From Novosphingobium aquimarinum (GTDB lineage: Bacteria; Pseudomonadota; Alphaproteobacteria; Sphingomonadales; Sphingomonadaceae): a stretch of DNA of 64,000 nt. The stretch lies in the NCBI RefSeq assembly GCF_009746585.1, contig NZ_WRPO01000003.1, positions 1 through 64,000 of the forward strand, read 5' to 3'. Shown here one piece after another: positions 556-7,098 of the stretch. Made by a program: the position numbers and the translations under genes. Numbering within the stretch: position 1 is the first letter of the stretch; every line of letters begins with the position of its first letter. The notes below the pieces were generated by a model, which saw only the letters and a list, made by a program, of their open reading frames with translations, did not search any database and had not been told where the DNA came from.

Positions 556-760
556 GATCGCCCTCATTCAAAACCTGCTTGCCACGCTGTGCGACATAAC
601 CGTCGACCACGTCCGACAGCTCGATCTCGAAGACTTCACGATACTGTCAGAGGAAGTGGCCTTTCAGGTCGGAACGGTCGCAAGCGCTATGGGCTTTCCG
701 CCTCGCTTCTTCTTCGAGCCGCGAGCGGTTGGCGACGCTCAAAGCGAGCGGGTCCATTGA
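556..760 (+). pseudogene. Phage gene remnant truncated by the IS (possibly tail assembly chaperone-like)
   Basis: An open frame runs from the IS right end (first full codon at 557) to TGA at 758-760, giving 67 residues with no start of its own. The segment 'LLATLCDITVDHVRQLDLED' resembles the short helical tail assembly chaperone proteins of Mu-like phages, but the resemblance is weak and the identity is a guess. The 5' part has been removed by the IS. Its stop overlaps the TTG start of the next gene (TTGA), as is common between co-translated phage genes. Confidence 0.45.
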
Positions 761-1410
761 CCGGCACGCCGATCGCCGTCCTGCCACCTGCCGGCGCGAT
801 CTGGCCGGCTGTGCGCGGAGCCGGCGCCCCGCAGTGGATACACTTGCTGCCCGCCGGTACGATTCGCACGGCCGACAAGCACGGTCCCTATGTCGTGGAA
901 TCCATGCACGCGATCGCCAGCAAGCTCGCACCGGGCGATAAGTTGCCGATCGACGAATGCCATTCCACCGATCTCGCCGTGCCGAACGGCGGCAGCGCTC
1001 CCGCGCGCGGCTGGATCATTGCGCTTGAGGCGCGCGCTGATGGCCTTTGGGGCAAGGTTGACTGGACACCCAGCGGGCGCGAGTTGGTCGCCGATCGCGC
1101 CTATCGCGGCATCAGCCCTGTGATCCTGCACGACAAGAGCGGCAACGTCCTCGCCATCCTGCGCGCCAGCCTTACGAACACGCCGAACCTGCAGGGCCTC
1201 GTGACGCTTCATTCGGCAGGCGTCGAGAATGGCGACGATCTCGACGCTGGCGATCGAGAAGTCATCACCAAGCTTGGCCTGACCGAGGATGAGTATCGGC
1301 GCCAGAAGAGCGGCCCCGATCTCGAAGGCCTCGATGAAGCCGATCTCCATGTGATGCGGATGTTCGGCCTAAGCAAGGCGGACTATCTCAACGGCCGAAT
1401 AAAGGAGTGA
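757..1410 (+). CDS. Mu gpI-like prohead protease
   Basis: This 217-residue protein resembles the gpI family of Mu-like phages, the protease/scaffold precursor used in capsid assembly. Family-like segments are 'WIHLLPAGTIRTADKHGPYV', 'LPIDECHSTDLAV', 'ARGWIIALEARADGLWGKVD', 'YRGISPVILHDKSGNVLAI' and 'RASLTNTPNLQGL'. The end 'MFGLSKADYL' is like the normal family C-terminus, so the 3' end seems intact, although the protein is shorter than the roughly 360 residues of Mu gpI. TTG at 757 is chosen because it overlaps the preceding stop and family-like sequence begins there; upstream Met codons lie in a shadow frame. It is orphaned, with no other head gene nearby. Confidence 0.75.
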   Translation: MTGTPIAVLPPAGAIWPAVRGAGAPQWIHLLPAGTIRTADKHGPYVVESMHAIASKLAPGDKLPIDECHSTDLAVPNGGSAPARGWIIALEARADGLWGKVDWTPSGRELVADRAYRGISPVILHDKSGNVLAILRASLTNTPNLQGLVTLHSAGVENGDDLDAGDREVITKLGLTEDEYRRQKSGPDLEGLDEADLHVMRMFGLSKADYLNGRIKE

Positions 1411-1504
1411 CGCGCTCCCCCGTACCTACGTCCAGAACCGCTCCCGGTTATCGGCCGGGCGGCAAGATGAGCGCATCCCGGTCACAATAGCCTGCGACGA
1501 AATA

Positions 1505-1877
1505 CTAGAGAAGGTCGAATATCGACGATTGCCGATCGTCGCGCTCTTCGCTGATGATGCGATAGACGTGGCGTTCGCTATACGCGGTTTGCAGCGCGAT
1601 TTGGGCATTTGTCAGGTTGCCGCGCGAATGCAGGTCGAGCACACGTGCCCGCCGAGCTGCTTGCTTAGGAACATCGATCGAACCACCGCCAGCCCACGCC
1701 GCGAGGCGATCGGCAGCATCCCTGCCCATCACGACGCAAATTTGATGAGCGTCGCCAATCGAGCGGGGGAACATAGAGACGGGTTCCCCCAAAGTGCTCC
1801 GCAAGGCGCTGCGCGTCCATGTCGCCGATTGCTTCAGCGAGTTGACCTAAGGCGTCATCGCCTGCCCGCCTGGTCAT
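1505..1877 (-). pseudogene. Mor-like late-transcription activator, frameshifted
   Basis: Two overlapping frames together give one Mor-family activator. The frame starting at 1877 encodes the N-terminal dimerisation part ('ALGQLAEAIGDMDAQRLAEH', 'GGTRLYVP'). The frame ending at 1505 encodes the rest, including the helix-turn-helix 'LTNAQIALQTAYSERHVYRI'. The switch falls at a run of five G on the plus strand (1765-1769). Removing one base joins 'LYVP' to 'RSIGDAHQICVVMGRDAADR' exactly as expected for the family. The start overlaps the upstream gene's stop (ATGA at 1874-1877). It is either a real inactivating indel or a homopolymer sequencing error. Confidence 0.6.
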
Positions 1878-2398
1878 GGCTTCCTCAGATTGGCCGGAAT
1901 GTCATGCTTGCGCCGGATGACGCAGACGTGCGAGCGCGAGCAGCCGATCTCTGCGGCAATCTCGCTATCATTCCAGCCGAGTGCATTAAGGCGGCGAACT
2001 TCCGCGAGGTGACGGGCAACTCGCTGATCGCGCGCGCCATGGCCTAATCCAAGATCCCTTCGAAGGTGGACGACATAGTCGGGATGCAGACCGACCTTCG
2101 CCGCGATTTTCTTTACCTCCAAACCTTTGCGGCTCAGTCGCTCAACTTCCTTTCGCCGATGTGTCGCGCGCGCCGAGCGGCGGGCTGTGGGAACTTCGGA
2201 AAGCGCCTTAGCCTTCTCAAAGCCGATCGCTTTCGCGATAGGATGATCCGGCGTCATCTCCATCGGCCATTCGAATTCAGTGATCGGCGGCAATGCATCA
2301 GCGGCAGCCATGAGCCTCGCGCGGGCGGCCGACATTCGATCGATGAACGAGGATGCACCTGCGGACGATACGCGAGCAGGCCGAGCGCGCTTCTTCAT
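1874..2398 (-). CDS. Phage regulator with two HTH-like segments, Mor-related
   Basis: A 174-residue basic protein. The middle segment 'MTPDHPIAKAIGFEKAKAL' resembles the Mor-family linker region, and two helix-turn-helix-like stretches follow: 'GLEVKKIAAKVGLHPDYVVH' and 'GWNDSEIAAEIGCSRSHVCV'. It probably binds DNA, but the doubled HTH is not the standard Mor layout and no exact family is assigned. It sits in a chain of start/stop overlaps: its ATG at 2398 overlaps the stop of the ORF upstream, and its own stop overlaps the Mor-like start at 1877. Its position suggests a middle-to-late switch role in the phage. Confidence 0.6.
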   Translation of the reverse strand: MKKRARPARVSSAGASSFIDRMSAARARLMAAADALPPITEFEWPMEMTPDHPIAKAIGFEKAKALSEVPTARRSARATHRRKEVERLSRKGLEVKKIAAKVGLHPDYVVHLRRDLGLGHGARDQRVARHLAEVRRLNALGWNDSEIAAEIGCSRSHVCVIRRKHDIPANLRKP

Positions 2399-2583
2399 GA
2401 CAGCACTCGCGATTGATCAGCGGACCGAAGGTCGCTCGCGCAACAGGCACGAGGATCGAAATAAGAAGGGCTAAGAAGGGGGTCGGGAGCGCATTGGCCG
2501 TCATGGGGCATGCAATCACTCAGCGGCGCTCCACGGGCCTCCTGCGGCAAATTGCCGATGCGATGCCGAGCACGATCATGCAT
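2395..2583 (-). CDS. Small phage ORF, 62 residues, unknown
   Basis: No homology is recognised. The case for it is positional: its ATG at 2583 overlaps the end of the upstream gene (stop at 2576-2578), and its TGA at 2395-2397 overlaps the ATG of the downstream gene, matching the overlaps elsewhere in this operon. The product has five Cys and many Arg, Asp and Pro residues, which is unusual. A competing frame over the same DNA (about 2298-2504) would give a hydrophobic N-terminus, 'LPTPFLALLISILVPVARA'. Which of the two is translated, if either, cannot be decided here. Confidence 0.3.
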   Translation of the reverse strand: MHDRARHRIGNLPQEARGAPLSDCMPHDGQCAPDPLLSPSYFDPRACCASDLRSADQSRVLS

Positions 2584-2851
2584 CGCATTTATCCGACGCG
2601 CAGATTGCCCAAAGTTCGCCGAGCAATTCCAAAGTCTGCTTGGCGGTTTCGTCTGCCTCCGAGAGCAGTATCCGCGACGCGCCACCGATCGCCATGATCT
2701 TGTCGTTATCAAGGTGGCATTCGAGATCGCCAGTGGCATCCTCGATCGTTTCGGCAAGGTGGCGGCAGTACGTGACGCGGTAGCTCAGCTTCGCGAGGAG
2801 TTGGCTGGCCTCGTTGTAGACATCCTCTGCCTTTCGGTTGCTTCGGCGCAT
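2576..2851 (-). CDS. Hypothetical phage protein, 91 residues
   Basis: A mostly helical, charged small protein with no recognised domain, containing 'EDVYNEASQLLAKLSYRV' and 'EADETAKQTLELLGELWAI'. The start at 2851 (MRRSNRK) is chosen because it lies two bases past the stop of the upstream gene; an in-frame ATG at 2890 would overlap that gene by about 40 bases. It is part of the minus-strand early phage operon downstream of the MuA-MuB fusion. Its function is unknown. Confidence 0.5.
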   Translation of the reverse strand: MRRSNRKAEDVYNEASQLLAKLSYRVTYCRHLAETIEDATGDLECHLDNDKIMAIGGASRILLSEADETAKQTLELLGELWAICASDKCDA

Positions 2852-2852
2852 C

Positions 2853-3230
2853 TCAGTTGCTCCCACAAAGCTCTGCTGCCGATGGAGCATCGCCCGAGGC
2901 TACGCGCATCTCTTGGATGATGATTCCGAGTAGCGAGGCGAAGTCGTCGGCATTGACGTGCCCAAGGGTTGGCATGCGAAGGTTCGATGCTTCGACGCAG
3001 AACCCACGAATGGCAGATAACGCGCCGACAGCATGGCTTAGCCGATCCGTGTCGACGATCTTACGCTCCAGTCGACCTGATGCGCCAAGTCTGGGCTTAT
3101 TGCCCGCTGCCTTTGCTCCATAGCCGGGCGCGGTTTGTCCCCCCACGTGCCCGCCATTGCTCGCGAAGGCGCAGCCATTGTCGATTGGTTCGTTCTGATC
3201 GTGAGCAAGTCCGTCTGATTGAAAGGTCAT
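2853..3230 (-). CDS. Hypothetical phage protein, 125 residues
   Basis: No family is recognised. The N-terminal half is Gly/Asn-rich and looks disordered. The C-terminal half, with 'DTDRLSHAVGALSAIRGFCV' and 'DDFASLLGIIIQEMRVASG', is probably helical. The start at 3230 has a good ribosome-binding site, AAGGAG eight bases upstream. It follows the MuA-MuB fusion after 73 bases and runs straight into the next small gene, so all are probably co-transcribed. Confidence 0.5.
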   Translation of the reverse strand: MTFQSDGLAHDQNEPIDNGCAFASNGGHVGGQTAPGYGAKAAGNKPRLGASGRLERKIVDTDRLSHAVGALSAIRGFCVEASNLRMPTLGHVNADDFASLLGIIIQEMRVASGDAPSAAELCGSN

Positions 3231-3303
3231 CCTAAGAACTCCTTAAAGAACGTGGTTAATTCGGGAGGGGAAATGAGCCTATGAAAGGCGCGCATGGAGC
3301 CGC

Positions 3304-4545
3304 TCAGCCGCCCGTGATGATGTCGCGGATGAGGTCCAGCGAGATTGGAGCGTCCCCCGCCTCTCGGCGACAGACGGCGAGTTGGCGATCTGCCAGGCGC
3401 AAGTCACGCTTTGCTCGCCCATCCTTGAAATGGCCGACAAATTCTCGGAGCGCAGCGCCGTCCGTCACTCCGCGAGACTGGGCAAAGATCGTGAGGTCGG
3501 TGTCGGCCAGGTGGGTGTAAGCGAGTGGCAATTCGTAAAGCAGTCGGCTACGAACGGCGCCTGACAGAACGCTTTCGCCTGCGAGCGTTTCTGCCATCGC
3601 GAATTCGTTGTTGCCGACAAAGATCAGACCGACCGGGAAAGGCGTGGTCGTTCGATCGCGATCATTCCAGAACCGCAGCATTTCGATCGCTTCGCGCGAG
3701 AGATACTGCGCTTCGTCGAAGATGCGAGGCTTCATGTCGTCGAAGCGCTTCGCGTCGTTCTTTGCGATGTCGACGATCTGGTGATAGCGCAGCTCTTCGA
3801 TCGTGCGCCGCGACAAATGGAAGGCGTTTTCCGGTAACTCGATGCCGCGCTTGGCGCATTCGGTCCGAAGGCATGTGAGCGTCTCAAGGCGGATGCGCTT
3901 CCAACCTGCGCGTTGCAAAGGTGATTGCCAGCATCCCGCCAGAATGCGCCGCAGCCATTCCGCCAGTTCGACCAATTCGCTATGGTCGCGGCCTGCCGCG
4001 CGGAAGGCCTTGTCGAACGGCCTCGATACCCAGACGCGCTGCTGACCTGCGTCAGAGGGCCGCTTCCGGCCAAATGCATTAAGGTCCCAGCCGTGGTCCT
4101 CGGCCTGCTTCACCCAGTGCTGGACCGTCCGCTTTTTGACATCGTGATGATACACTGCATCGTCGATCGCGGCGCCTCGCTCGCGTGTACCCTTCTCGGT
4201 GTGCATGATGTGCCGCAGGACTGCGAGGCGCTTGCGTTCTTCCTCGGTCTGGTTCGGCGCCGGGATGAACTTCGATGTCATCGGCCGGACTGGCACCGGC
4301 AAATAGACCGGCTCCTCGCTTGCGGTTCTGAACGCCCTCTGAAAGGCCTCTGGGAGGCTGCTCAGAAGCACTTCATACCGGAGGCCAGAGCGACCACCAC
4401 CAGCTTCACCTGAAGCCTGACGAACTAGCAAGATGTGCCCGTTCCAAGGCAACCCCGCCATAGCTTTGCGAAGTGCCTTATGCCCGGCTTGGCGGCTTAT
4501 CCCTGCCAAAAATGCAAATTGCGGAGCAGATAGGAAAGTTGACAT
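3304..4545 (-). CDS. MuA-MuB in-frame fusion lacking the transposase core
   Basis: This 413-residue protein joins two phage Mu transposition proteins. Residues 1 to about 275 match the DNA-binding part of a MuA transposase ('APQFAFLAGISRQAGHKALR', 'LPWNGHILLVR', 'LRRILAGCWQSPLQRAGWKR', 'LRYHQIVDIAKNDAKRFDDM'). From about residue 276 the sequence is the C-terminal half of a MuB-type AAA ATPase: a Walker B-like 'IFDEAQYL', the sensor-like 'GLIFVGNNEF', then the helical end. The MuA DDE domain, the rest of MuA and the MuB Walker A are all missing. The junction is near 3720. ATG at 4545 is chosen because MuA homology begins there, seven bases after the upstream gene's stop. The protein might still bind phage-end DNA. 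Confidence 0.75.
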   Translation of the reverse strand: MSTFLSAPQFAFLAGISRQAGHKALRKAMAGLPWNGHILLVRQASGEAGGGRSGLRYEVLLSSLPEAFQRAFRTASEEPVYLPVPVRPMTSKFIPAPNQTEEERKRLAVLRHIMHTEKGTRERGAAIDDAVYHHDVKKRTVQHWVKQAEDHGWDLNAFGRKRPSDAGQQRVWVSRPFDKAFRAAGRDHSELVELAEWLRRILAGCWQSPLQRAGWKRIRLETLTCLRTECAKRGIELPENAFHLSRRTIEELRYHQIVDIAKNDAKRFDDMKPRIFDEAQYLSREAIEMLRFWNDRDRTTTPFPVGLIFVGNNEFAMAETLAGESVLSGAVRSRLLYELPLAYTHLADTDLTIFAQSRGVTDGAALREFVGHFKDGRAKRDLRLADRQLAVCRREAGDAPISLDLIRDIITGG

Positions 4546-4552
4546 TGTCGGC

Positions 4553-4786
4553 CTATCGCCCGGACGCCACAACAATACGGGCGATGAGGTTGCTCGCGGC
4601 AGGTCCGCGCCATTTGCCCTTGAGGGCGGCGCTCGCATTCTGGCGATGCACATTATTTCTACGGCACCATGCCGCGAGGGAGCTACCCTGACGGACAAAA
4701 CCCGCACGAACTTCCGCGAGTAGTGCTGGGCTAGCCTTTAAATGAGCGATCGTTTCGTTATGCAGAGTACCGTGTGCCATGAGCAC
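4553..4786 (-). CDS. Ner-like small DNA-binding protein of a Mu-like phage
   Basis: A 77-residue protein placed where Mu carries ner, between the repressor and transposase genes. The core 'LAAWCRRNNVHRQNASAALK' reads as a helix-turn-helix. Similar short proteins precede MuA in alphaproteobacterial Mu-like prophages. It should bind the early control region and limit early transcription. The start could be 4786 or the Met at 4780. It is divergent from the repressor gene, with only about 23 bases between the two starts, and the intergenic repeats at 4759-4837 overlap its start. Confidence 0.6.
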   Translation of the reverse strand: MLMAHGTLHNETIAHLKASPALLAEVRAGFVRQGSSLAAWCRRNNVHRQNASAALKGKWRGPAASNLIARIVVASGR

Positions 4787-4837
4787 ATTGATATGCGGAA
4801 TCTCGTGTTATGCAAGAGGAATATACGGAATCGCGTG
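4759..4837. promoter_or_regulatory. Three phased 16-bp direct repeats, probable phage operators
   Basis: Related 16-mers start at 4759 (TATGCAGAGTACCGTG), 4792 (TATGCGGAATCTCGTG) and 4822 (TATACGGAATCGCGTG). The last two differ at two positions and the first differs from the second at four. The spacings of 33 and 30 bp put them on roughly the same helix face. They span the divergent control region: the first lies inside the Ner-like coding start and the third inside the repressor coding start. They are the natural candidates for repressor or Ner binding sites. Confidence 0.5.
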
Positions 4838-5313
4838 CAGGTGAGCGATTGCGTGCGTCAATCGAGGGACGCGGGCTATCGCTTGCCGCTTTCTCACGAC
4901 AGTGCGGAGTCCCTTACCGCAGCTTGCAAGATTATGTTTCTGGGAAAAGCAGGCCTGGCTTCGAGCAGTTAATGAAATTCTCCAATGCAGGTCTCGATGT
5001 CGATTTTATACTCACCGGCAAGACAAAAGATGGTGTTATTGTATCACTTCCTGAGAGCATTTCGCTCGGTGATGGACTATCTTTTGGCAGGAGACCCTAC
5101 AAGGAAACAGAACTGACCGATTTCCGTCAAAAAATTTCTCAAGGTATCCAGTTAAGAGATTGGATCGATATTTGGAATTTTGCCGAGGATTATGTTCCTG
5201 CGAACCTCGAAATCGAGGATAGACGACGTCAAGCTGCTATTGCGCTTGTTGCCACAAGCGTATCAGTCGACCTTGTTCAGCGCTTGCGTCAACTTGGTTG
5301 GCTTAGCGAATAG
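4810..5313 (+). CDS. Phage repressor, XRE-type HTH protein
   Basis: A 167-residue protein with an N-terminal helix-turn-helix at about residues 14-48 ('LSLAAFSRQCGVPYRSLQDY', then 'SGKSRPGFEQLMKF'), followed by a C-terminal part with no recognised peptidase motif. Its place, divergent from the Ner/MuA operon, is that of the immunity repressor in Mu-like phages. The lack of an S24 Ser/Lys autocleavage domain suggests Mu c-type rather than lambda-type induction; that is inference. The codons are AT-richer than in the core genome. Confidence 0.7.
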   Translation: MQEEYTESRAGERLRASIEGRGLSLAAFSRQCGVPYRSLQDYVSGKSRPGFEQLMKFSNAGLDVDFILTGKTKDGVIVSLPESISLGDGLSFGRRPYKETELTDFRQKISQGIQLRDWIDIWNFAEDYVPANLEIEDRRRQAAIALVATSVSVDLVQRLRQLGWLSE

Positions 5314-5397
5314 AACAGGGCCACCATCCATTTTAAGCAAAATTGACACTACTTCTGAAGCCCAATAGCGTGTGCGCTTGGCGTGGAGGAGGGGTGA

Positions 5398-6267
5398 ATG
5401 GCAGAAGAATATACTCAGGCAGCACTATTGAACGTTGTTGCGACACCGCACCCGGAGGGTGTTTACGAGCGACTTCTCCGAAGCGCCGCTTACAACGTTG
5501 TTCAGTATTGGGGCTCCGAACATGCAGCAATAAGCCCGCTCCGAAAGGTGCGTAATCAAGACGGCTTTTTCGATTTCAGCTTATCGCTTTGGATCGAAAT
5601 AAATCCAGACGAGCCGACTATACGAAAAGAGGATTTGGCGAAAGCCAACTTTCCGCGCGAAGGACGAGAGTTTTCCGAAGCTTACGGTATCAACGGCCGC
5701 GTCTTCACCTGCGTCCTGGACACCCAAACTCACGTTATCACGGTCGAGCTCAAAAACGAGGATGGCAAGCGCCTATCGGCAGGAAGAGCCGAACTAATTT
5801 TTCAAAACCTTTTGAGCCCTCTGGTTCTCGGTGCTGATGCCGAAGACGTCGAGGTCACGCTCATCCCGCAAGACGACGCTTTAGATTATGTTCTTGGTTT
5901 CAATAGGTTAGACCGATTGGAAATCCTTGTAAAACTCCCAAATAACGACGATATTACCACCGAGACAAACCGCGTCCTGGGGCGTCTCCGTGAGATGAAT
6001 GCCAAGAGTGAAAAATCTGTCCTTTCTCGTTTGGCGGGTACCGATGGGATAGAGCCAGACGAAGAGCATCAAACTCTGGCTAGGGTTGCGGCCGCTGGCA
6101 ACGGCAAAGTCGAGACTGTTGGCTTAGATGAGGATGGCGAGAAGAGCGAGCGCTCTACTAGAGAGAAACCTAAAATTGTCAGATACATCCTCCAACGAGG
6201 TCAATCCTATCTTGGGGCTATCCGCAGCGTTGCGAGGCAAGCTCGCGACGATCATGACCCCATTTGA
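5398..6267 (+). CDS. DUF4747-family protein
   Basis: This 289-residue protein resembles the uncharacterised DUF4747 family. Family-like stretches are 'WIEINPDEPTIRKEDLAKAN', 'FPREGREFSEAYGINGRVFT', 'HVITVELKNEDGKRLSAGRA' and 'DALDYVLGFNRLDRLEILVK'. There is no signal peptide or membrane segment, and no enzymatic motif I can name. The start at 5398 has a strong ribosome-binding site (GGAGGAGGGG). Its 3' end overlaps the next gene by 14 bases, so the two are probably translated together. Base composition is AT-richer than the flanking core genes, which suggests acquisition. It may be cargo of the adjacent prophage. Confidence 0.75.
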   Translation: MAEEYTQAALLNVVATPHPEGVYERLLRSAAYNVVQYWGSEHAAISPLRKVRNQDGFFDFSLSLWIEINPDEPTIRKEDLAKANFPREGREFSEAYGINGRVFTCVLDTQTHVITVELKNEDGKRLSAGRAELIFQNLLSPLVLGADAEDVEVTLIPQDDALDYVLGFNRLDRLEILVKLPNNDDITTETNRVLGRLREMNAKSEKSVLSRLAGTDGIEPDEEHQTLARVAAAGNGKVETVGLDEDGEKSERSTREKPKIVRYILQRGQSYLGAIRSVARQARDDHDPI

Positions 6268-6763
6268 ACCCTTCAGAATATATTGGCGCATCTATGGCGG
6301 GGTGAAGGAACTCGTCAAATCTCCCTATTTATGGTTCGCGGTAGTACTGACATTAATTTGTCATCCGCTTTGGATGGATCAGGGCTTCCTGGATGACGAG
6401 CGTCCAGTTGCTGAAACGCTCCTCACTGTTGTCCCCGCGCTTATGGCGTTCACGTTAGCAGGTATGGCCATTGTCTTGGCCCTTTCTGGGAAGCAATTCG
6501 TTAGCGCAATTAGGGAAGACGGGCGTGAAAATTCGCTATTCATGCGCGTCGTCGCACTCTTCTTTCATTTCATCCTCGTGCAATCCATGGCTCTCGCTTT
6601 CGCATTCATCTCAGCAAGCTATCCGTCTCTTGACTCGCTAGCAGGACTTGCATTTTTCATGGCTTCTTATGGGGTAGCTTCAGCGGTTGCGATTGCAGCG
6701 ATGCTGCTCAACGTTTCGCGTGTTTATAATGCGTCGAAGGACGATGACGATCCGCCACGATGA
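6254..6763 (+). CDS. Four-helix membrane protein paired with DUF4747
   Basis: A 169-residue protein with four likely transmembrane helices: 'YLWFAVVLTLICHPLWM', 'LLTVVPALMAFTLAGMAIVL', 'MRVVALFFHFILVQSMALAF' and 'LAGLAFFMASYGVASAVAIA'. The tail is charged (KDDDDPPR). No family is recognised. ATG at 6254 is preferred over an upstream Met at 6128, which would lie deep in the DUF4747 gene. The 14-base overlap with that gene points to coupled translation. A soluble protein coupled to a small inner-membrane protein is the layout of several phage-exclusion systems, but nothing in the sequence proves that role. Confidence 0.6.
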   Translation: MTPFEPFRIYWRIYGGVKELVKSPYLWFAVVLTLICHPLWMDQGFLDDERPVAETLLTVVPALMAFTLAGMAIVLALSGKQFVSAIREDGRENSLFMRVVALFFHFILVQSMALAFAFISASYPSLDSLAGLAFFMASYGVASAVAIAAMLLNVSRVYNASKDDDDPPR

Positions 6764-7098
6764 ACGGTGTCCAGGGCGAGAATAATAGAACCCGCGATCG
6801 TCAGCTTTCGGTTTACGAGCAGGTTTACCACCCCTTTCTCTTGGGAAGCGCGAGCTACGAAACGGCGTCGATTTTGCTCTGGTAAACCTGGCCCATAGAG
6901 ATTTGCCACAATCTGACTTGAAAGCCTCAGAAAACTGCCAACCTACGCGCAGACTGGTCACCCTGTTGCCGCAATCCGCGAGCGCAAAACTCTATGGGCC
7001 GCTCCACCGCTCCACCAGGCGCAAAAATACCCGGCAAGACCTCTTGTGTTGCAAAAATACAACACCATATCGCACTGGTCAGGAGGACATACCAAGCC
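6764..7098. other. Intergenic DNA between the accessory region and clpB, with two inverted repeats
   Basis: No gene is supported here. Two inverted repeats are visible: 11 bp at 6820-6830 and 6880-6890 (CAGGTTTACCA and its complement), and 17 bp with one mismatch at 6890-6906 and 6984-7000 (GGCCCATAGAG...). They abut each other at 6890. This is also where the right boundary of the accessory DNA must lie. A possible heat-shock promoter for clpB is at 7043-7070. Confidence 0.6.
7043..7070 (+). promoter_or_regulatory. Possible sigma-32 promoter of clpB
   Basis: CTTG at 7043-7046 and CCATATC from 7065 are spaced by 18 bases and fit the loose alphaproteobacterial RpoH pattern (CTTG, about 17, CYTATNT). 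The site is about 30 bases ahead of the clpB start, and AGGAGG lies at 7081-7086. clpB is a classical heat-shock gene and an rpoH gene is present in this window. The match is imperfect. Confidence 0.4.

Follow-up and report, generated by a model that had tools for sequence, protein, structure and literature searches.

In phage lambda, the soluble protein RexA and the small membrane protein RexB (PF15969/PF15968) are encoded one after the other, directly behind the repressor gene, which we take to be cI. The product labels of the lambda record are garbled, and rexA and rexB were identified separately. Comparable pairs have been published. A 2026 paper counts five described RexAB-like systems, and it gives the way in which T4 rII activates lambda RexAB as unknown. 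In lambda, CarolAnn, Sbash, and Pseudomonas putida, the soluble protein has been proposed to be the infection sensor, and the membrane protein to damage or depolarise the membrane (PMC6426596, PMC6426606, PMC12894663); for P. putida RexAB, leakage was seen and depolarisation was not. CarolAnn gp44/gp43 (Gordonia) and Sbash gp30/gp31 (mycobacteriophage) consist of a cytoplasmic and a four-helix membrane protein. The cytoplasmic protein has a weak HHpred match to DUF4747, the gene pair is required for defence, and the CarolAnn genes come straight after the repressor gene. Butters gp30/gp31 is also a soluble and four-helix membrane pair with a prophage-defence phenotype, but its published roles are reversed (PMC7542560). 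In the P. putida prophage P1, RexABpp (PP_5643/PP_5644) joins a RexA-like DNA-binding protein to a four-helix membrane effector and lies downstream of a CI-like repressor.

Sbash, CarolAnn, and Butters have been published as DUF4747-motif systems, and a 'DUF4747/CarolAnn prophage system' was described, in the accessible text, with DUF4747 as an immune operon at 17 of 443 capK/capS loci (EMBO J 2026, PMC13373217). Thus, DUF4747 is already known as part of exclusion or immune systems, and the statement of an earlier note on the present DNA that the family has no known function does not hold. In addition, the B3-like transposable phages Fc02 and Ps56 of P. aeruginosa carry superinfection-exclusion genes near the ner/repressor region. 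However, these are Olg1, which resembles a DEDDh exonuclease, and ORF10, encoded on opposite strands, and the text available on them describes no pair of a RexA-like and a membrane protein.

Here, we analysed the first 64,000 nucleotides of contig NZ_WRPO01000003.1 of Novosphingobium aquimarinum (hereafter the window). We found that a DUF4747 gene and a gene for a four-helix membrane protein follow the repressor-like gene of a Mu-like prophage remnant (Table 1). Because the first protein has a fold match to lambda RexA and the genes are ordered as repressor, rexA, and rexB, the best reading is a RexAB-type exclusion pair, and we consider it probable that the two genes, carried downstream of a Mu-like prophage repressor, exclude phages by abortive infection in the manner of RexAB. 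The earlier note had suggested a defence or superinfection-exclusion module in general terms, and the predicted RexA fold supports this suggestion in a more specific form. By computation, we obtained the pair and its conservation, a predicted fold for the DUF4747 protein, the assignment of its partner as a membrane protein, and the order of the genes.

Table 1. Coordinates of the gene pair and of the prophage features around it in the window
Feature	Position	Strand	Evidence
Transposase with integrase-core domains, contig edge	6-494		
Homologue of Mu-like_Pro (Mu I protein family, head protease)	589-1410	+	E 3e-34
A/B fusion made by deletion: N part from transposase A, C part from protein B	3304..4707	-	G027 frames
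Ner-like HTH protein, prophage early region	4553..4786	-	phrog_15281 E 2.6e-12, phrog_925 E 2.3e-6
HTH repressor-like protein, putative prophage c gene	4810..5313	+	HTH_3 E 2.1e-5, 24.9 bits (cut-off 23); phage transcriptional-regulator PHROGs
DUF4747 protein, 289 aa, intact ORF; proposed RexA-like DNA-binding sensor	5398..6267	+	PF15931, phrog_10040, predicted fold
Four-helix membrane protein, 169 aa from ATG 6254; proposed RexB-like effector	6254..6763	+	phrog_20580, AlphaFold2, conserved position
Candidate phage left-end sequence (predicted; phage/host boundary approximate)	6984..7018	.	Inverted pair, similar sequence in L109

The first protein of the pair belongs to PF15931 (E = 8.1e-23, 81.6 bits against a curated Pfam cut-off of 27) and matched phrog_10040 (E = 3e-34). 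Its AlphaFold2 model, built from a 46-row alignment, had a pLDDT of 93.2 and a pTM of 0.89. In a Foldseek comparison with 350,542 PDB chains, the top match of this model was lambda RexA (8twq_A, E = 5.6e-6, probability 1.00), and RdgC came next (2owl_A, E = 1.1e-5; 2owy_A, E = 7.6e-5). Four chains reached E < 0.001, each of them RexA or RdgC; beyond this value followed another RdgC chain and then the kinetochore protein CENP-L. Furthermore, VIA gave Z scores of 7.9 for CENP-N, 7.7 for RexA, and 5.5 for RdgC, where CENP-N and RexA are tied by VIA's own rule and a Z under 8 can, as VIA cautions, reflect a common arrangement. For the modelled dimer-DNA complex of RexABpp, the published DALI Z against RexA is 8.8, to be set beside the VIA Z of 7.7 for the window protein. 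According to the available part of the RexA crystal-structure paper (PMC11077077), RexA has RdgC and the kinetochore proteins IML3/CHL4 as relatives; thus, the matches of our model are the relatives reported for RexA itself. The global TM-score between the model and RexA was 0.28, and this low value may reflect a different angle between the domains, as the same paper argues for RexA and RdgC. On the predicted model, the soluble component would therefore share the RexA fold expected of a RexAB-type pair. The DUF4747 profile found no match among PDB sequences at E up to 1. Residues N12, H18, Y23, H112, P181 N182, N235 G236, and P258 are nearly invariant in the family.

The gene directly downstream encodes a four-helix membrane protein, as in RexAB-type systems. 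The protein matched phrog_20580 over residues 26-123 (E = 3.2e-15), and its AlphaFold2 model (mean pLDDT 87.5) has helical segments at residues 24-40 (broken), 51-77, 95-122, and 127-165, all four long enough to span a membrane. The nearly invariant residues are Y14 G15 G16, P61, L63, G65, F66, L68, H105 F106, and Q110. A search of the model against PDB and BFVD structures gave nothing under E 0.001. The top BFVD row was an unnamed siphovirus protein (E = 0.012), and rank 4 was a 165-aa protein of phage Sbash with the length of Sbash gp31, a match that is not significant (E = 0.83) and suggestive only.

The earlier note had described a soluble DUF4747 protein and a four-helix protein whose genes overlap by 14 bases. 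Both proteins were found as described, and the overlap has this length if the partner starts at ATG 6254. However, the true start, and hence the overlap, is uncertain because the partner frame is open 5' of this ATG back to 6128, inside DUF4747, and because the partners in two other loci (L011, L019) lack a start near the equivalent of 6254, the nearest possible start there overlapping DUF4747 by at least 56 bases. Seven loci from the clade of the window have a partner frame that stays open for 140-239 bases into DUF4747. A long coding overlap was considered and was not convincing, with synonymous-shuffle p values of 0.08-0.47 in six of these seven loci and a Fisher combined p of 0.058. Among twelve other loci given the same shuffle, L062 alone stood out (217 bases open, p = 0.004).

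No sequence relation of the pair to lambda RexAB, CarolAnn, or Butters was detected. Neither window protein matched PF15969/PF15968 or the PADLOC RexA/RexB models at E up to 1. Both the Pfam families and the PADLOC models do detect the lambda proteins; therefore, the window pair lies outside that sequence family. The DUF4747 profile did not match lambda RexA, CarolAnn gp44, or Butters gp30, and the partner profile did not match RexB, CarolAnn gp43, or Butters gp31, single-sequence targets that make this a weak test. The hhalign probabilities against single CarolAnn gp44 and gp43 were 0.23% and 0.06%, respectively. CarolAnn gp44 is 370 aa long and has no Pfam match at E up to 1, in contrast to the 289-aa window protein with its PF15931 domain. 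A known PADLOC defence family was also considered, and no model fits the window pair or the L012 pair. The settings differ as well. Lambda rexAB sits in a lambdoid prophage and the window pair in a Mu-like one; RexABpp, unlike the window pair, is separated from its repressor by two genes; and the 'DUF4747/CarolAnn prophage system' is, in the text available, regulated by CapK/CapS, whereas the window pair follows a prophage repressor-like gene. By its predicted fold and its layout, the pair nevertheless appears to be a member of the RexAB kind.

The earlier note had also placed the pair beside the immunity repressor of a Mu-like remnant and had called both genes AT-rich, and our results agree with it on both points. 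The HTH_3 gene ends 84 bases before the DUF4747 gene on the same strand, and the A/B fusion and the Mu-like_Pro homologue lie in the same region. Compared with 0.637 for the window, GC is 0.511 in the DUF4747 gene, 0.502 in the membrane gene, and 0.480 in the repressor-like gene, and GC3 is 0.516 and 0.521 in the two genes of the pair against 0.888 in clpB. The Mu-like remnant is real. The name Ner was given by gene position, with no family match behind it. A promoter and terminator scan gave no plus-strand site between the repressor and DUF4747, and its totals were close to the shuffle expectation and thus uninformative.

A related stretch of prophage early region lies beside clpB in genome G027 of the same genus (L109, 1513-9140). 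Residues 53-331 of the A/B fusion match a frame of about 695 aa in G027, and residues 328-464 match a separate frame of 290 aa; these two frames match phrog_310 (transposase) and phrog_296 (DNA transposition protein), respectively. The deletion that fused A and B is about 1.6 kb relative to the G027 sequence, and only residues 20-305 of the about 695-aa A were found in the genome of the window (57 contigs). Therefore, the prophage is defective. Both ORFs of the pair are intact. The Mu I-protein homologue and the A/B fusion lie on opposite strands; hence, the remnant has been rearranged or is a composite, and more of the prophage may lie elsewhere because the window is the start of the contig.

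The similarity between the window and G027 on the clpB side ends at window position 7043. Beyond it, G027 has a short region, a 175-aa repressor-like gene, a Ner-like gene, A, and B. The G027 repressor-like protein reaches 22.1 bits for Phage_CI_repr (cut-off 22) and yielded no blastp match with the repressor of the window (E up to 10), and the Ner-like proteins at the same position are 37% identical. No DUF4747 pair was seen in L109, and DUF4747 had no match anywhere in G027. GC is 0.507 for window positions 4786-7042, 0.599 for 1500-4700, and 0.665 on the clpB side. Since the region of low GC is also the one in which the window departs from G027, the repressor and the pair look like an exchanged cassette, and they may be one exchangeable immunity cassette. 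At the candidate phage end, there is an inverted pair (6890-6906/6984-7000), and sequence similar to 6984-7018 is found in the same place in L109, which suggests that the two stretches reach the same phage end. The clpB-side similarity starts mostly at 7040-7043 in the top-scoring relatives and goes back to 6981 with looser settings. At the clpB site in five relatives, the upstream ORFs differ and no target duplication was readable.

To estimate conservation, both genes were used as starting points. DUF4747 is uncommon and was found in 2/98 relatives, 2/385 genomes at class level, and 7/398 at phylum level, with the genome of the window counted each time; genome G037, from the same genus, carries a DUF4747 pair. 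The 26 loci found through DUF4747 come from 9 genomes, 2 plasmids, 12 viral contigs, and 3 genome contigs; several of these loci duplicate one another, having been reached along two routes, and a third plasmid match, which is the DNA of L004, was left out. The partner family was adjacent in 24 of these 26 loci (partner profile, E 1e-3). The other two are L017, which has a diverged membrane protein beside DUF4747 with 28.6 bits against the larger partner profile, and L020, a deletion remnant described below. Conversely, DUF4747 was adjacent in 40 of 45 loci in the largest search that started from the partner and in 2/2, 5/5, and 4/4 loci in the smaller ones. The five misses are L063 and L082, which begin at or near a contig end, L079, which does have DUF4747 but whose partner is cut by the contig end, and the two loci without DUF4747, L046 and L048.

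The two genes are on the same strand and at most 24 bases apart in 75 loci that have both, except L027 with its broken DUF4747 frame. Furthermore, the distance matrices of DUF4747 and the partner were correlated (r = 0.68; none of 2000 permutations as high). The 73 pairs with both ORFs longer than 150 aa gave 52 non-redundant pairs after removal of DUF4747 proteins at least 90% identical. Independent profile libraries gave the same picture: all 46 aligned DUF4747 rows matched PF15931, and all 46 aligned partner rows matched phrog_20580. The earlier note had asked whether DUF4747 homologues mostly lack a membrane partner and whether the partner is a chance neighbour found only here; the homologues do carry one, the partner is a conserved family, and the conservation of the pair across loci rules out a chance neighbour. 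In some loci, the pair has decayed or changed. At L020 (2739-3035), the start of DUF4747 is joined to the apparent end of the partner, a deletion remnant of a pair. At L046 and L048 (about 4961-6579), the partner is present without DUF4747 and other genes take its place; L045 and L049, with similar neighbours, do have DUF4747. The DUF4747 gene of L027 and the partner gene of L023 are each split between frames.

The pairs are carried by phages, small Acinetobacter plasmids, and chromosomes, in some of the last beside apparently ordinary chromosomal genes. A transposable-phage transposase was found in 13 of 49 viral records (Mu-transpos_C in 8/47, an L102-like one in 5/49, no overlap), a count of joint presence in a record, where the transposase and the pair may or may not stem from one phage. 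Three genome loci (L098, L101, and L102) also have such a transposase within the fetched stretch; L101 and L102 were assigned by their 35% similarity to one another, since their Pfam integrase-core matches are below cut-off. Thus, transposable phages are frequent carriers, and we found no report of DUF4747 pairs in them in the available parts of the literature searched. By tblastn, the phage collection gave no match to the DUF4747 proteins of the window and of L004, to the window partner, or to the A/B fusion. Likewise, viral contigs yielded no relative when the queries were a two-row DUF4747 alignment (A7) and the A/B fusion. As for the regulator, 8 of the 49 viral records, including the near-identical stretches L059 and L060, have a co-directional HTH_3 gene no more than 2.1 kb upstream, when only the 35 matches over the family cut-off are counted. 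The nearest upstream gene was listed for 59 loci, and the direct repressor neighbours among those tested with Pfam were the window and L013/L101. At the transposable-phage locus L101, the order is repressor, DUF4747, and partner, and the repressor has Phage_CI_repr and S24 domains. Most pairs, however, have no recognised repressor close upstream, and clustering with repressors occurs only occasionally.

These results bear on what the pair does. Its main role could be to tune the lysis-lysogeny switch of the prophage, like lambda RexA, with exclusion as a secondary effect. The repressor adjoins the pair in the window and in L101, and lambda RexA can bias the lambda switch according to the available text of PMC11077077. 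However, only the 8 of 49 viral records mentioned above have an HTH_3 gene over the cut-off close upstream, the pairs also occur on small plasmids and beside chromosomal genes, and the window prophage is defective and yet has kept both ORFs intact, so that such a role seems highly unlikely. Still further down in probability, and close to negligible, is the view that the membrane protein serves in lysis like a holin, or has another late function, and stands beside DUF4747 incidentally. The membrane protein has a weak Pfam match to Phage_holin_2 (E = 0.096, below cut-off), but it stands beside DUF4747 in phages, plasmids, and chromosomes alike, and a single family, phrog_20580, covers every aligned partner.

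A better candidate than these, though an unlikely one, is the division of roles published for Butters, in which the DUF4747 protein would be a toxic or antiviral effector that the membrane protein keeps inactive at the membrane until infection. Butters gp30/gp31 is a similar soluble and four-helix pair without sequence match to the window proteins, and co-inheritance of both genes suits an effector and its keeper equally well. In contrast, the accessible part of the 2026 paper states that lambda, CarolAnn, Sbash, and P. putida need both genes and that the membrane protein is the effector, and the partner kept without DUF4747 at L046 and L048 would not be explained by a pure keeper. The predicted fold, the partner, and the order support a sensor and a membrane effector, and the computed results do not strictly separate the Butters scheme from it.

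For the RexAB-type exclusion pair that we prefer, the mode of action is proposed by analogy with lambda, CarolAnn, Sbash, and the RexAB pair of P. putida; the analogy covers binding to DNA, triggering, damage to the membrane, exclusion of phages, and co-expression with the repressor. As a cytoplasmic sensor of RexA/RdgC fold, the DUF4747 protein would dimerise and bind DNA, and the product of the downstream gene would act as a four-helix effector in the membrane. A lysogen would make both proteins along with the repressor. On infection by a second phage, the DUF4747 protein would be engaged by the DNA or the replication proteins of the incoming phage, and the engaged protein would activate the membrane protein. 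The inner membrane would then be damaged, growth would stop, and the infection would be aborted.

Furthermore, we put forward, as a tentative idea with less than even chances, that DUF4747 with phrog_20580 may be a large, separately evolved Rex-type branch missed by PADLOC, and that transposable (Mu-like, B3-like) phages may repeatedly acquire the pair, sometimes as a repressor-rexA-rexB cassette. If this is true, linking exclusion to the repressor as lambda does would be a habit shared more widely by temperate phages and not a peculiarity of lambda, and an RdgC-like sensor would watch the DNA intermediates of foreign phages while tolerating the transposition of its own phage. The sequence-distinct branch (52 non-redundant pairs) and the nearly invariant residues give comparative material for residues of sensing versus those of the membrane lesion, and the pair tells defence-finding tools which families to include.

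Two further occurrences deserve mention. In a Salmonella Welikade isolate, the available Table 1 of PMC11181664 gives a unique DUF4747 gene of 894 bp and, at the next locus tag, a hypothetical gene of 606 bp; judged by size alone, these are what would be expected of a pair. On two Acinetobacter plasmids (L006, 2130-2718; L005, 2137-2722), an annotated toxin-antitoxin pair stands beside the DUF4747 pair, the types being BrnT/BrnA and a RelE/ParE-type toxin with NadS.
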